Shown here piece after piece: positions 1,972 through 39,417 of a stretch of DNA of 64,000 nucleotides. A model generated the notes under the pieces. It ran no database searches, had not been told where the DNA came from, and was given only the letters and a program-made list of their open reading frames with translations. Positions within the stretch are counted from its first letter, which is position 1. Every line of letters starts with the position of its first letter. Source of the DNA: Pempheris klunzingeri (taxonomy: Eukaryota > Chordata > Actinopteri > Acropomatiformes > Pempheridae); the NCBI RefSeq assembly GCF_042242105.1, contig NC_092029.1, forward strand, positions 8,681,885-8,745,884, written 5' to 3'. The position numbers and the translations under genes were made by a program.

Positions 1972-2376
1972 ATGCGGCTGCCATCATTAATTTGGATTCT
2001 GCACTTGATGAATCTCACAGAAGGCCTCGACAACACAAGTGATCTGCGATACAGACGTGAGTTTTCCAGCATGACTTGTCATCTCCACCTCTCTAATACT
2101 ATTGCTAAACTTGGCTCCTGTGAAATGTGTCTTATCTCGCCCCATTTTCTCAGTAGGAGATAGTAAACAGTAGACGGACACAACATATGGAGACAATAAG
2201 TGTATTCTATCAGGGAACAATGTGGTCATAGATTTCCGTTTGTTTCACCCTCTTGCACACTATGAATTTGAAGGCTTGGCTCTCTCTCTTGGCTCTGATC
2301 TCGTAAAAGCAAGTTTCTTGTGAAATCGCATTCTGTAAATGGTGCACAGTATCTGATCTCAGTGAGGCTCCCCCTC

Positions 2377-2407
<31 letters not shown>

Positions 2408-3489
2408 CTTGTATCTGTTTATCCACAGGTAGCTCCTCTGTGAGCAGAATCTGTCCAGCAGGTTGTGCGACATGCTCGGCCCCGAATGGCTGCCTGTCCT
2501 GTAAACCTCGCCTCTTCTTCCACTTGGAGCTGGATGGGATGCGGCAGAGGGGCACCTGTCTGTCCTCCTGTCCCCGAGGTCACTATGACATGCGAGCGCC
2601 ACACATCAACACCTGCACTAGTAGGTACCCATCAACAAAGATAGGAGCAGTGGAATGATGTAAAATAATAAGAGGAACATCCTTTGGTGTCCTGACAGTA
2701 TGATATTAACAAAAGTTTATTCCCTGCAGGGTGCAGGGAAGACTGTGCTTCCTGCTTCAGTGAAAACTTTTGCACACATTGTCATCCAGGCCACTTCCTG
2801 TTCCAGGGCAAATGTGAAAACAGCTGTCCAAACGGACTGACGGCGAACACGGCACTGCGAGAATGCACAGGTGAGACAGTTATGTCATGTTATTTTGAAT
2901 GCATGTAATGCTGATATGAGGTCTTCTGTGATGTCGGGGTAGCGCAGCACAATATAAGGCGGTTGTGTCTCTCTGTGTCAGAGTGCTCTTTAGGCTGTGA
3001 GGTGTGTGTGAGGAGGAACATGTGTGTGCGGTGCAGAGCAGACCTGTACTTCCTCCACGGCCAGTGCCATCTCACCTGCCCAAAGGGATTCGAGCCTGAT
3101 GTGCAGCTTATGCAATGCACCCCTCAAGGTGAGAGAAATTCCCTTTTGCCACACAGTTGAAACATCCAATCCAACAGTGCATATCAACTCACCATTACAG
3201 TATAGAGGTCTCTGATTGTGTCTCCACTGTCCCACATTTTTCCGTCTTGTTGACTATGAGGATGTGTCTCACCATCTCTCTCCTCACAGTGCACTGTGAG
3301 GTCGGGGAGTGGACAGACTGGGGTCCATGTGTTCGGAGAAAGAGCGTGCGATCCTACAGGAGGGGACAGGAGACACGTACCCGACAAGTTCTGCAGCCCC
3401 CGAGTGTGTTCGGCAACCCCTGTCCACACGTGTCAGAGATCAGGAAGTGTGTCATCAAAAAGAGACTGAAGAGCCCAAGCAGGTTGTAA
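1972..3489 (+). CDS. rspo3: R-spondin 3-like secreted Wnt enhancer, five coding exons
   Basis: Exons 1972-2056, 2429-2620, 2730-2870, 2982-3128 and 3290-3489 join in frame (all junctions phase 1, all GT-AG) into 254 residues. Residues 1-18 form a signal peptide ([18 protein letters not shown]), followed by a basic RYRR segment. FU1 (about 30-92) contains [12 protein letters not shown] and [12 protein letters not shown], very close to mammalian RSPO3; in this family FU1 binds ZNRF3/RNF43. FU2 (93-139) keeps the FSENF motif, whose phenylalanines bind LGR4-6 in the family. A third FU-like unit (140-188) is extra compared with the two of mammalian R-spondins. The TSP1 domain (189-245) keeps WTDWGPC, but only four cysteines (191, 202, 233, 242). 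The protein ends after [10 protein letters not shown], without the long Lys/Arg tail typical of RSPO3. A tail exon reached by an unrecognised donor cannot be excluded. The ortholog call also rests on rnf146 lying downstream. Confidence 0.9.
2384..2406. repeat. (CA)n microsatellite in rspo3 intron 1
   Basis: An uninterrupted CA run of about 11 units ends 22 bases before the first base of rspo3 exon 2, so it lies where the branch point and pyrimidine tract would be. Confidence 0.9.
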
Positions 3490-3677: not shown

Positions 3678-3683
3678 AATAAA
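3678..3683 (+). other. rspo3: Candidate rspo3 polyadenylation signal
   Basis: AATAAA lies about 190 bases after the rspo3 stop codon. It is the first canonical hexamer I see downstream on this strand and would give a short 3' UTR. No transcript evidence is available. Confidence 0.45.
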
Positions 3684-4284
3684 AGGGTTTGATGGATTTA
3701 ATGATTTTTTTAAAATTCTTGTCTGCCAACAAATTCAACACCTTTCCTGCATCGTTTGGCCTCATCTGGACTTTGGCTGAATCTGACACACTTCATATGA
3801 AAAGCAGTCATGCTAAATTAATGCCACTTGTGGTCAGCCAGGGTGAAATTACTTAATTGTTTTGCGAAGTGATTGCCTAACTTGACTTAAAGTTTTGGCC
3901 ATAATCCCTTCATGTAAAAACTGGATAAAACAGCATATACTGTACAGCCAACACTTATCTGAGCACAGGCCAATAGGCCTTTTCCACAGAGGAAACTCTG
4001 ACATATTAGACCAGAAAAAACACAGTTGTAAATAATAAGATGAATGCTGGCTGAATTCCATTTAGCTGCTCTGGTTTCAGAGGCCTGGTGCTCGTCATGC
4101 TGGCTCGCTGTCACACCGTCATGACTTACTGGGACACAGTAACAGAGCCATTGTTAATGTTATTAGTAACATCTGCACTTTTCCTACCGTGACAATTCAA
4201 AATGTCTGCTGTGAAAAAGGACTTTCAATCAGTCCCACAACCCATTCATTCATTAGCATGAGAAGACAAAAGAAGACCTTAACC

Positions 4285-4363
4285 TTAAAAAGTCTTATGT
4301 CAGAGAGGACAAAAGAAGACCGTTAAGGTCTTCTTTTGTCCTCTCTGACATAAGACTTTTTAA
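4285..4363. repeat. Perfect 37-bp inverted repeat, 5-base loop
   Basis: The left arm 4285-4321 is the exact reverse complement of the right arm 4327-4363, with GTTAA between them. A further partial copy of the inner part (GACAAAAGAAGACCTTAA) lies just upstream near 4265-4282. Perfect arms of this length point to a recent event. It lies between the 3' end of rspo3 and the first exon of rnf146. Confidence 0.97.
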
Positions 4364-4480
4364 TCTGTATGTAATGATATCAACACCTCCCAGTATAGCA
4401 GGCCTATACCTCTGAACATAGGCTACAAGAGTAACACATTTTAATAGACTTAGAAATCTATATGAAAGAAAATGTATAAT

Positions 4481-4584
4481 TCTCAAAAGAAACTACACAT
4501 TAAAATTATTCTAATAATTTTTTCTCAAAAGAAACTACACATTAAAATTATTCTAATAATTTTAATGTGTAGTTTCTTTTGAGA
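4481..4584. repeat. Tandem repeat ending in a perfect 30-bp palindrome
   Basis: The unit starting TCTCAAAAGAAACTACACAT occurs at 4481-4520 and again from 4523. The second copy's first 30 bases (4523-4552) are followed, after two bases (CT), by their exact reverse complement at 4555-4584. Confidence 0.97.
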
Positions 4585-4608
4585 ATGGATATTTTCTAAT
4601 GTTGGTCT

Positions 4609-5315: not shown

Positions 5316-6395
5316 ATGGCAGGCTGTGGAGAAGTGGACTGTTCCCTGAATGCCCTGGCTACCTCCAAGCTGATCGAGGATGTAGGAGATACCTGTGTGA
5401 CAGATCCCTCCAGTTCCACCACCACTAACACCCCAGAGTGTGCCATCTGTCTGCAGACCTGCATCCACCCTGTGCGCCTTCCATGCTTCCACGTCTTCTG
5501 TTTCCTGTGTGTGAAAGGCGCCTCCTGGCACAGTAAGCGCTGTGCTCTCTGCCGGCAAGAGATCCCAGAAGACTTCCTGGAGCGGCCTGTTCTTCTCTCA
5601 CCTGAAGAACTGAAAGCAGCAGCTGCAGGGGTGAACCGAAGTGTAGGGACATCAGGCAGTACCCGGGGGGACAATGTGTGGTACTATGAAGGGCGCAACG
5701 GCTGGTGGCAGTATGATGAGAGGACCAGCCGTGAGCTGGAAGAGGCCTTCTCCAAGGGCAGGAAGACCACAGAGATGCTGATTGCAGGGTTTCTTTATGT
5801 GGCCGACCTGGAGAACATGGTGCAATATCGCCGGAATGAGCATGGCCGCAGACGCAAGATAAAGCGGGACGTTTTAGATATCCCCAAGAAGGGAGTCGCG
5901 GGACTGAGGTTAGACCCTGAACCTGCCCCAATTCCTGCTTTACCAGTTGTCACCTCAGCTCCAACAGAACGTGTCAGCTCAGCTGATGGATCAGACACTG
6001 CAGCCCAATCACAACCTTCATCCTTTGGGATAATGGTGTCTCTTCCCCCTGTTCGACCTCCAACACTCCTGGGGCGCCATCTTACCAGTCCCCTTTCTCC
6101 CTCACCCTCAGCCCTGGAGGAGTCTTTCTCCCAGCTCCTAATCAGCCAGCCAGAGTGTGAGGAGGTGGAAGGAGACGATGAGCTACAGACGTATGAGTAT
6201 GCATCAGGCAGCAGTGAGAGTGAGGAGGAGAGGGAGAGGGGGAGAGCGGAGTCGATGCCAAGGAGAAGACATAGGCAAAGACCCCTAAGAGAGAGCCAGC
6301 CAGCCAGAATGCCTCCGAGGGGCGGACCCTCCAACTCTGCACTTAATCTCCGCTCCCGTAGTCCTGACGGACAGTGTACTGTGACAGAAGTGTGA
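5316..6395 (+). CDS. rnf146: E3 ubiquitin-protein ligase RNF146 (Iduna), RING plus WWE
   Basis: A single coding exon gives 359 residues. The ATG at 5316 is one base after a splice acceptor and starts MAGCGE, as in mammalian RNF146, so I prefer it to the longer open frame upstream. A C3HC4 RING spans residues 42-79 (CAICLQTC, then CFHVFCFLC, then CALC). The WWE domain spans about 122-185 ([39 protein letters not shown]) and in this family binds iso-ADP-ribose on PARylated proteins. The middle is Ser/Pro-rich; an acidic [14 protein letters not shown] stretch follows, and the tail [14 protein letters not shown] matches the mammalian C-terminus. Known role: PAR-dependent ubiquitination of tankyrase targets such as Axin, which promotes Wnt signalling. 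The intronless coding region is usual for the gene. I see no damage. Confidence 0.96.
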
Positions 6396-24492: not shown

Positions 24493-29640
<5,148 letters not shown>

Positions 29641-34851: not shown

Positions 34852-37800
34852 TTACTCCCTTTTCGCTCTTCCTTTCTTTTGGCTCTTCCCGTTATCCTCC
34901 GTCTCCTCCGCTTTGCTATGACCGTTAGTTACCATGGAGGTGCCATTTGCGACGGGCTTGCCTCCCTTCTGTGTGGAGGAAGGTTTGCGTCGGTAAGCGT
35001 GGTAGTAGAAGTTGGCGAAAAGGATGATGAAGGTGACGGCGTAGCCAATCAGAGCCCACTGCATCCAAGCGGGGAATGGGCAGCCAGTGTAGAGGGAGTG
35101 GCCGGCGTGGCCGATGGTCACGTGGAACTGGATCTGTTGAACACACAATATGTACACACATAATACAACAACACTGCCTGAAACGCAGTAAAAATGACTA
35201 GACAGAAATCAGTAACAAACTATGGACTTGAATTTATCTTTCCTGCTTTTAAATTTGGTGCATTTTGCTCAAAGACAAATAAGACAACAGATTTAAGTAT
35301 ATCTCTGTATTTGTCTTTTTCTAGTGCCTCTAACTACAATGTTATGACTTTAGTATAACAGTATAATCGCTGCTTATAGCATAATATACTTTTAAGGAGG
35401 GTATTTCATCAAATGCGTCTTCTATCTGCACAAATATGCTTTGTTTTTCAAAGAGCATTGCTTCGGGCTGGAGCCTGACAGCCACAGAACACACACAAAA
35501 CCACAGCTCCGAAGTGATACCCACCATCTGAATAATGGTGAGGTATTTCTTCCACCAGAGGTACTTCTGCATCTGAGGCCCCAGTGCTGCCAGACCATAG
35601 TAACCATACATGAGGACGTGGATGGAGGAGTTGATAGTCGCACCAAAAAATGCTGTGGAGAGAATGCGTTGGATCTGAGTTAGTATCAGATACGGAGGCG
35701 GTGCTGTTTGTTAACGGTTAACGTGTAACTGAGTGCCGGTGCTTTATGCAGTCGGACGGATTCAGCAGCTGGATATTATAAAAATCACGATCTGGTTACT
35801 TACATTGTCCACCGGGGACCCACTTGATACCGATCCACCAAAGGATGAACATGGTGCAGTGATGGTAGACATGGAGGAAGCTGACCTGGTTGAACTTCTT
35901 TCTCAGGATGAAGAAGACTGTGTCGAGGAATTCCACTCCTTTGGAGATGTAGTACCACCAGAGAGCCGATGCTATCTAAAGACACGAAACAGAGTGGAGT
36001 GAATTACTGGAGCCCACTGGGCTGGATCTTAGACACCAACAGCACTGTATGAGACGGCGTCTTCGACAGATAGCAGCTTCAGACTGTGAATACAATGTGC
36101 AGACATTGCAGCAGACACCTACAACTCATGGCAGTCACTTAAGGTCCAAGTTAATCAGCCCTTTAAAGCCTCTGTCTGATTCCAGACATGTGGGACTGTT
36201 AAGTGAAGTATTTGTCCTGCAGAGTACAGTTGCAACAATTAATTGATTAATAAATTACTTGTCAGCTATTAATCCCCAACTATTTTGTTAATCTATTAAT
36301 CAGTTTGAGTAATTTTAGCATGAAAGAAACATTCTCAAATCCTGATTCTCAAATGTGAATATTTTCTAGGTTCTTTATTCTTCTGACAGTGGTGTGGACA
36401 AAACAAGACATTTGAGGACGTCACCTTGCTCTTTGATTTTCTGATATTATATAGGACAAACAACTAACTAATAAATTGAGATGTCACAGCCCTTCTACTG
36501 AGAGCAGCTTTTAAAAATACTGAAAAACAAAACTATAATCTTTGACGCGGGTAAAAGATAAAATCGAGGAAAAGTAAGAAATGAAGCTTAAAACATACAG
36601 TAAAGTAATATTATATTGTAGGATTGATACTAAGAAGTAAAGATCATAGTATACTGAGCCACTGAAGAGCACAATAAATACTTGGTCACTCAGATATCAT
36701 ATATTAAGAGTAATTGTATCACATACAGTATATTGATTCTATTCATAGTGATGTTAAAAAATGATGCAGCTCCGTTAACTGAAATCAATATTTAAATTGT
36801 ATTAAACTGTACACATATCTTATAAGACACGATGGGATGGCCATCAGTTTAGAGTTTAGAGTTTCATTGATAGATTTTCATGTGAGGAGACCTGCAAACC
36901 AAAGGCTCTGCAGATGTATTCACTAACAGGACGTCCCACAACAACATGTCACAGAACGCAGCGAGTGTGTTGTCTTATTTAGCTCTTCATCCTGATACAC
37001 ACGTGCACACAGATGCTCTCTCTGGCATCGTGCCACCATGAAAGAGTAAGGCCTGAAGGTGGAGAGCGGGGGGGTGGAGTGTTGCGGTGGTGAGACCAAT
37101 TACTCCCGCCTATCTGAGTACCGACCACGCCCTGTTTGACCTGAACTCACTAGAGATGTACAAATGTTTATTTCTCTCTGTAATCTGAATTCACTGAAAC
37201 ATATACACCACAGAAATGGCCATCTCCTTAATATCAACAGTAGGATTCCACTGCTTAGCATGCGCTAAAGTTAGAACATGATTAGTCAAATCAAGTCTAT
37301 TTTCCCAAGATGATTTTGGTGCGTGTGAATCTATGTAGTGGCATGGGATGTGTGTGCTGGAGGGAACTTACCCTGACTTCATTGACATCGTTGGAGTATT
37401 TAACAGGCTGACAGAGGTAGCTGTACCCGGCTGCTCTAGAGCCTATAAGGAGCTGATGGGGAGAGGGAGGAAAAGGACAGCGGTCAGAAAGAGGATGAGA
37501 GGAAAATGGCTGACATTCCTAACTCTGATTTGGAGAAAGCAACACCAACTGCAGTGAACGATATTAATCCCTGTTGACACCCTTTTTTTTTCTAAAAAAA
37601 GAGCATCTTAACACTAAAGGATGCTCACAGAACTGATGTACAGAGCAAGATGTAAAATACTCAAGTGTTTTTTTTTTAGGATTTAATGATTTGCCAACAA
37701 ATTTTTAATTTTCTTAGAAAGAACTGAGAGCTATTAGACATTTCTTTGCTACGGTAGAATCCATCCTCTGCTGCTGGAGATGTGTCATTGGAGAGGATAC

Positions 37801-39417
37801 ATCACAAAACACAAAGCATTTGTACATCATTTGCTGTAAATAAGTAATCAGATACACAACCGTTTGCTAGGTGCTCTGCTGAGATAATATGTAGACTAGG
37901 TTGACTATTCATCCATTTAAATGGCATATTAACGTGGTTCAAATGTGAGTAATTATGTTGTATCTTTACATTCAGTAGTAGGTCACTGGTGTAAGTTTCT
38001 CTACAACATCCTTGTTTTCTCAAAAAACACAGACAGATGCTTTTTGTGAGACTGCAAACACACAACATACAAAAAGCTAAATGAAACATGCATGATTACT
38101 GAAAACGAGTGACAGCCACAGAAAAAGCACCTGCAACGTGTCTTTTGACTTGTTAGGAGATCTTATTTTAGAAGATTGTGGCAGAGTTGAGATGACTGCC
38201 CTCTATATGCAAGTTTTATGTAATGTAAGTTTTTACAAGTCACATTTTTTGGAACCTTTTAGAGTGACAGAGTCTAGAAACACAGGACGGATTTACACAG
38301 GATTCCTTTTTTTACTAAATGTCTGCAAAGCACAGATTGACCATTACATGGTGTTTCTTCAATGTAGTCTTAGGAAAAGCCCTTTGGAAACACTGGTATT
38401 GGGAGAACTTATTAGGATCTTATTACTTAGTTAACACATCACCCTTTAAAGACTATGAATCTGTGTTATGAGTCATGTGCTCTCTGTACTACATGACGTC
38501 ATCCACGTGCCCTTCCGAGCCTCACCTCTTTGGCGATGTAGAAATTGAGGACCACCATGCTGAAGTTGTAGACTATGAGGGTCTTCCTGAGTGTGTAGGG
38601 CTGGCGGTCCTGCATGTATCTAGGCCCCGCCCACAGGAAAAGCAGGTACAGGCAGCTGATGACCAGAGTGGGGAGGGGAGACGACATCATCGGCCAGTTC
38701 TCCACCCTCTTGTCTGGGGAGAAAAAGGGATTAAATTCAAGGGTGGGAGGGAGAATGGTAAAGAGACGGGATGGCGATTGTAAATGTTGATTCACACATT
38801 TAACGCATACAGTATTAAGCTTGTTACAATCAACCCACCCATCCTCCCATATACACAACTATAGAACATACACACACTCTCCCACAACTTTTTTAAACCA
38901 CTTGACACTTTACTAGTACATTTATAACAAGATTTTGCCCTATTTGTGCATTTTATCTCAAAACATACAGGAGCAGTGCACAGGAACAAGTCCCCAGTTT
39001 GACCATATTAAACTACTTATTTGGAGGTGAAAACAAATTGAATGTTAAAATTATTACATAAACTGCATGTGGCTGATTCCTGCTCTGCATGTTACCTGCT
39101 ATCCTTCTCCAGTGCAATGAATAATCGTAATTTATATAAGTCACACTTCTAAAAAGACAAAAAGGTCAAACTGGATACTTGTCTTATCTTTTCCCCAGCT
39201 GTACAAGTGAGCTGGTGACTAAAGTCTTATCATTGGCCACAAGATTTACCCCATGACAATGATAAACTATACTCTATAATCATAACTATAATCATGCATC
39301 TGAAGTGGCACAGTGCTCTTATGTGATTTAGTGAATAGTGAAGATCTTACCTGCTATAGAAAGGCCCCATTTGTAAAATTCTACAGTGTCGTTCACAAAA
39401 TGTGTTACAACCTCCAT
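34852..39417 (-). CDS. elovl4: Very-long-chain fatty-acid elongase ELOVL4, six coding exons
   Basis: Coding exons on the - strand are 39417-39351, 38713-38526, 37452-37372, 35975-35804, 35652-35525 and 35133-34852, joining in frame into 305 residues. It starts [17 protein letters not shown], with an N-glycosylation site NDT at 9-11. The block KRVENWPMM and [19 protein letters not shown] give the first membrane segment. The catalytic histidine box HVYHH is at residues 147-151, after the conserved [28 protein letters not shown] and [20 protein letters not shown] follow, with further membrane helices to [11 protein letters not shown]. The C-terminus RAKRE fits an ER-retrieval signal of the dibasic type. 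ELOVL4 condenses malonyl-CoA with C24 and longer acyl-CoA in the ER, making very-long-chain fatty acids for retina, brain and skin. Teleosts have two copies, a and b; I lean to b from memory of the N-terminus but cannot prove it. No damage is seen. Confidence 0.95.

Follow-up and report, generated by a model that had tools for sequence, protein, structure and literature searches.

The rspo3 locus

The window (the whole 64-kb stretch of DNA that was analysed) is part of contig C18 in a genome of 646 Mb and carries a five-exon R-spondin gene on its plus strand. This gene is followed by rnf146 and, further downstream and on the minus strand, by a soga-family gene and then an elovl gene (Table 1). 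Joined together, the five exons constitute a single open reading frame of 254 amino acids with phase 1 at all four internal junctions. The deduced protein comprises the R-spondin FU1-FU2 repeats (PF15913; 5.6e-40 and 136.1 bits for the whole protein, with the best stretch in FU1-FU2), a third furin-like repeat (FU3) and a reduced TSP1. The gene adjoins rnf146, the neighbor of RSPO3 in vertebrates including human, and the assignment of the locus hosting the FU3 exon to rspo3 is thus supported. Besides the possible polyadenylation signal in Table 1, two further AATAAA/ATTAAA sites were found at 4499 and 4541. Between rspo3 and rnf146, positions 4260-4586 are densely packed with inverted repeats that are nearly perfect (95-100% complementary, with arms of 24, 31, 37 and 43 nt). 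These repeats lie near a weak candidate for a tail exon at 4257.

Table 1. Features of the rspo3 locus; coordinates are those of the window.
Feature	Coordinates	Strand	Evidence
rspo3 exon 1: start codon and, as judged by eye, a signal peptide; phase 1 at its end	1972..2056	+	spliced ORF, donor gtgagt
rspo3 exon 2: FU1, phase 1 at both ends	2429..2620	+	Pfam Furin-like_2
Leu codon at the R66 position of FU1 (R66 of RSPO1, R67 of RSPO3)	2530..2532	+	alignment of 6 sequences
rspo3 exon 3: FU2	2730..2870	+	Pfam (7.6e-11), exon borders, alignment
rspo3 exon 4: the third furin-like repeat (FU3), with 8 Cys	2982..3128	+	spliced ORF, Pfam, Cys pattern, structure model
rspo3 last coding exon (best model): reduced TSP1, stop codon 3487-3489	3290..3489	+	Pfam TSP1_spondin, Cys count
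possible polyadenylation signal AATAAA, 189 bases past the stop	3678..3683	+	motif search
rnf146, neighbor gene	5316..6392	+	WWE (1.6e-18), RING-type matches
soga-family gene	24680-28250	-	PF11365 in two pieces scanned; duplicate on C8
elovl gene	34852-38858	-	PF01151 in three pieces; duplicate on C8

A third furin-like repeat on its own exon

An earlier reading of the DNA, made from the sequence only, had proposed a 147-base exon with clean splice sites between FU2 and TSP1, and we recovered the exon with exactly these borders. Its 147 nt are open and in phase 1 at both ends, the acceptor reading gtctctctgtgtcag/AGT and the donor AAG/gtgaga. When splice sites were scored with a simple matrix, the FU3 acceptor ranked 53rd among the 4119 AG sites of the window and the donor 7th among the 3828 GT sites. 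Within the gene, the former is the best of four (the others rank 122, 101 and 95) and the latter the second of four (the others rank 69, 292 and 6).

The reading frame stays open with or without FU3, as the sequence-only reading had anticipated, and skipping of the exon is therefore possible as far as phase is concerned. The symmetric phase, together with the identical length and phase of the FU3 exon in the second rspo3 gene on contig C8 (see below), could be taken to suggest a facultative cassette that gives rise to two-FU and three-FU isoforms by splicing. Nevertheless, we regard this scenario as highly improbable, because all of the internal junctions are in phase 1, so that the symmetry of the FU3 exon is no sign of skipping, and because the FU3 splice sites rank at or near the top among those of the gene.

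The exon was confirmed to encode a genuine third furin-like repeat in R-spondin-3 of a fish. In the six frames of the window, the exact cysteine spacing of FU2 occurred at two places, namely the FU2 and FU3 exons, and it was absent from all of the 200 mononucleotide shuffles of the window, by which a chance cysteine pattern was ruled out. On its own, the FU3 exon scored 35.7 bits with Pfam Furin-like_2 (1e-8; cut-off 28 bits). Every one of the 13 PDB sequences that matched at E values up to 1 was R-spondin-1 or -2, the best being R-spondin-1 over its FU2 part (3.4e-8). FU3 is also predicted to keep the furin-like fold. The structure model had a mean pLDDT of 91.6, albeit with an input alignment that consisted of the three repeats of the window (FU1 and FU2 beside FU3) and may favor an FU-like model. 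The best PDB match of this model was FU1-FU2 of RSPO2 (4c8v_D; TM of 0.88 by query length, rmsd of 0.9). Among the best 50 of the 338 structure matches, the first 32 were entries containing an R-spondin and the 33rd, the insulin receptor, was the first of another fold. Both LGR-contact phenylalanines (F106 and F110) are kept in FU2 of the window copy (codons 2756-2758 and 2768-2770), whereas the alignment places Val and Met at the corresponding positions of FU3, bearing out the earlier remark that FSENF of FU2 is VRRNM in the third unit.

Origin of FU3

The third repeat had been described as mirroring FU2, and FU3 indeed appeared to be nearest to FU2 among the repeats of the window, with a local score of 92 as compared to 72 with FU1. 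The FU2/FU3 score was reached by none of 2000 full shuffles and none of 2000 shuffles with cysteines fixed. The corresponding counts were 0/2000 and 1/2000 for FU1/FU3, and 0/2000 and 6/2000 for FU1/FU2. At the DNA level, the score between the FU2 and FU3 exons (28) exceeded those of all 300 shuffles. The introns flanking the two exons did not stand out, as scores equally high were obtained in 40 and 26 of 300 shuffles. A recent exon duplication was ruled out by the small number of residues shared between the two exons (14/47), the unremarkable flanking introns and the presence of FU3 on C8 as well.

In the tree of the eight FU repeats, the FU3 sequences of the two rspo3 genes grouped together with a support of 85/85, and the FU2 sequences were placed on the other side. 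This tree, inferred from 48 columns, is weak on its own regarding the origin of FU3, as no inner branch reached the 95/80 mark and 44 of 500 shuffled labelings clustered as well. On the other hand, the common length, phase and place of FU3 in the two genes, together with the published result on gar, make a single origin before the duplication the simple reading. Thus, FU3 most likely emerged through a duplication of the FU2 exon before the two rspo3 genes separated from one another.

A second rspo3 gene on contig C8

A search of the genome with FU3 as the query yielded five matches, namely FU3 itself, FU3 and FU2 of a second rspo3 gene on contig C8, and two further places on C8, which are FU2 exons of two genes taken to be rspo1 (L025) and rspo2 (L024) from their similarity to the R-spondins in PDB. 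No FU match was found between FU2 and TSP1 in the rspo1 and rspo2 stretches, and the rspo2 stretch examined yielded no FU1. In the C8 rspo3, FU3 likewise occupies an exon of 147 nt, with the phase seen in the window. The two FU3 sequences are 51% identical over 49 amino acids in the genome search and share 24/49 residues in the spliced reading. The C8 version retains all of the eight cysteines and lacks both of the LGR-contact phenylalanines.

The order and orientation of the block rspo3-rnf146-soga-elovl on C8 are the same as those in the window. All query pieces of rnf146 (1/1), soga (5/5) and elovl (3/3) matched C8 in the order and on the strand of the window, and the rnf146 duplicate was 76% identical over query residues 1-202. 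As the neighbors share order and orientation, the two rspo3 genes are block duplicates. We infer that the duplication was that of the teleost genome.

The C8 copy looks canonical, with a TSP1 of six cysteines ending in a donor that scores 5.9, and a candidate basic-tail exon upstream of rnf146 (74 residues, 36% K/R, acceptor 2.4). The latter was picked by its K/R content and sought only in the phase required by the C8 TSP1 exon, so that its phase lends no independent support. The candidate tail (L007, about C8:9243628 onward) is rich in Arg-Glu repeats (RERERERERE), while the human tail is rich in Lys.

Divergence of the window copy

The window and C8 copies share 38/63 residues in FU1, 23/46 in FU2 and 38/59 in TSP1. 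In FU1 of the window copy, the R66 position is occupied by Leu, whereas the other five aligned R-spondins all have Arg there. The Gln at the Q71 position, five residues on, is kept (codon 2545-2547). The numbering of R66 and Q71 was mapped by the spacing between the two residues. R66 is reported as a contact with ZNRF3/RNF43 (PMC12111769, PMC5800842), and both residues are described as near-universally conserved in R-spondins (PMC12111769). The sequon at N137 near the end of FU2, reportedly used by human RSPO1 and RSPO3 (PMC4926470), is absent from the window protein, in which the sole N-X-S/T sites are N14 and N21.

The C-terminal part is also altered. TSP1 in the window has four of the six cysteines found in the C8 copy and matched Pfam TSP1_spondin with 36.3 bits in the whole protein and 41.3 bits as the exon alone (cut-off 41). 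The frame stops 12 residues past the last TSP1 cysteine, five of the 12 being K/R. Downstream of TSP1, pairing of donors and acceptors combined with a search for K/R-rich ends gave no convincing basic-tail exon. The two GT sites nearest to the stop score -3.7, and among the 55 donor/acceptor pairings, the best two would add an end of 23 residues with 35% K/R (donor 3447, scoring 1.3, and acceptor 4257, scoring 1.6) or one of 15 residues with 27% K/R (sites scoring 1.3 and 2.4). Both of them would remove the last TSP1 cysteine, and the former lies at the edge of the inverted repeats. The basic tail thus seems to have been lost in the window copy. In the FU-repeat tree, the branches of the window copy are longer than those of the C8 copy in both FU2 (1.29 vs 0.14) and FU3 (1.33 vs 0.62). 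Of the two duplicates, that in the window is, judged from its sequence, the more derived one.

The replaced R66, the two missing TSP1 cysteines, the unconvincing tail with its poorly scoring GT sites and the long FU2 and FU3 branches would also be expected if the window gene were a decaying duplicate on the way to a pseudogene, in which FU3 was retained by chance. We consider such decay unlikely, as an open frame runs through all five exons and their splice sites are usable, FU2 and FU3 each retain eight of eight cysteines, AATAAA is found downstream, and an unconstrained duplicate of such divergence would be expected to hold stops. The residues shared with RSPO2 are fewer in the window copy than in the C8 copy for FU2 (22/47 vs 27/48) and TSP1 (22/52 vs 29/52), but FU1 of the window is as near to the R-spondins in PDB as that of C8 (31/62 vs 30/63 with RSPO1; 32/62 vs 27/52 with RSPO2), which counts against general decay.

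Comparison with published R-spondin-3 proteins

An rspo3 exon devoted to a third repeat is already known for ray-finned fishes from the published accounts, as had been suspected in the sequence-only reading, and its novelty was ruled out by four papers in print since 2012. FU3 was reported in exon 4 of medaka rspo3 in 2012 (PMC3542121). In a 2014 report, zebrafish and other ray-finned fishes, unlike elephant shark, were described as having a separate rspo3 exon for FU3, and six-exon rspo3 genes or cDNAs with FU3 have been reported in other fish species. In 2018, FU3 was deleted experimentally from rspo3 of tongue sole, Cynoglossus semilaevis, and all of the ray-finned fish orthologues in the accompanying 35-species tree are stated to carry FU3 (PMC6073468). 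Finally, a survey of 430 proteomes in 2025 noted that RSPO3 has three FU repeats in some Actinopteri and two in Erpetoichthys calabaricus, and that some species possess two or three copies of the gene (PMC12111769). The word "furin" does not occur in the accessible text of the zebrafish rspo2/rspo3 mutant paper (PMC7954795).

The window gene agrees with rspo3 of zebrafish and medaka in that FU3 sits between FU2 and TSP1 on an extra exon of its own, their genes being described as six-exon ones (for medaka, also in PMC3542121). However, the teleost genomes searched there are described as having one rspo3, in contrast to the two in this genome, and medaka Rspo3 is of 328 amino acids as compared to 254 in the window protein. 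Tongue-sole Rspo3 is similar in the order FU1-FU2-FU3-TSP1 and in FU3 being nearer to FU2 than to FU1, but is reported to be 330 amino acids long with a C-terminal coiled-coil region (PMC6073468), whereas a long tail exon is present in the C8 copy and no convincing one in the window. RSPO3 of tetrapods and elephant shark is described with FU1, FU2 and TSP1 as in the window but without FU3. The multi-copy RSPO3 of Actinopteri is similar in that certain species have two or three genes, some with three FU repeats, albeit the accessible account mentions no copy that lacks the tail or R66 or has a reduced TSP1 (PMC12111769). As far as the accessible parts of the open-access literature are concerned, no rspo3 copy without the tail was found in print.

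Functional implications

In R-spondins, FU1 is reported to bind ZNRF3/RNF43 and FU2 to bind LGR4-6. The most likely role of FU3 is to extend and remodel the connection from the FU1-FU2 receptor-binding unit to TSP1. As FU3 is without the LGR-contact phenylalanines, it is more likely to be a linker than a second LGR site. Alternatively, FU3 may be an active module that makes its own contact with a receptor or proteoglycan and changes the Wnt output. The FU3-deleted mRNA of tongue sole reportedly no longer lowered boz significantly (PMC6073468), implying that FU3 may do more than space, and FU3 has been retained with all eight cysteines in both duplicates. We nevertheless regard the active-module scenario as rather doubtful, since the two FU3 sequences are alike in only about half of their residues, neither copy has either of the two phenylalanines, and human RSPO3, with two FU repeats, is reported to have had the same kind of effect in zebrafish embryos as the zebrafish protein.

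The consequences of the changes in the window copy can be considered in light of the mutants of RSPO3 (PMC5800842). Both R67A/Q72A and the joint loss of TSP and BR are reported to abolish signaling in LGR4/5/6-knockout cells and to raise the EC50 in wild-type cells by 21-fold and 333-fold, respectively, whereas the loss of TSP alone or BR alone had minor effects in wild-type cells. The window copy keeps the LGR contacts of FU2 but is without the FU1 arginine, two TSP1 cysteines and, apparently, the basic tail. As the natural changes fall on the parts for the LGR-independent route and the LGR contacts are kept, the window copy, if expressed, would be a weak R-spondin that depends on LGR and shows little activity dependent on heparan sulfate, possibly competing with the C8 copy. 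Altogether, we consider it probable that the gene is a known three-FU rspo3 of which the window copy became a weakened, LGR-dependent R-spondin. One point against this reading is that the window copy differs at R66 alone, with Q71 kept, while the published mutant alters both residues. Another is that FU1 of the window, taken as a whole, is no more distant from the R-spondins in PDB than FU1 of C8, and a third is the weak candidate tail at 4257.

The simple agonist model also fits poorly with the reports that fish Rspo3 inhibits, rather than raises, Wnt signaling in zebrafish embryos (PMC6073468 and the 2014 report), and that human RSPO3 likewise lowers Wnt output in these embryos (the 2014 report). 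A bolder proposal is that, having lost its strong contact with ZNRF3/RNF43, an intact TSP1 and the tail that binds heparin after the duplication, the window copy became a partial antagonist that retains FU3, binds LGR but signals poorly, and competes with the C8 copy. We hold this proposal to be tentative and, on balance, doubtful.

The third repeat represents a clean gain of a domain by exon duplication in a major regulator of Wnt signaling. If confirmed, the shortened duplicate would be a natural experiment separating the LGR-dependent from the LGR-independent action of R-spondins, and may be relevant to the conflicting reports on fish Rspo3.
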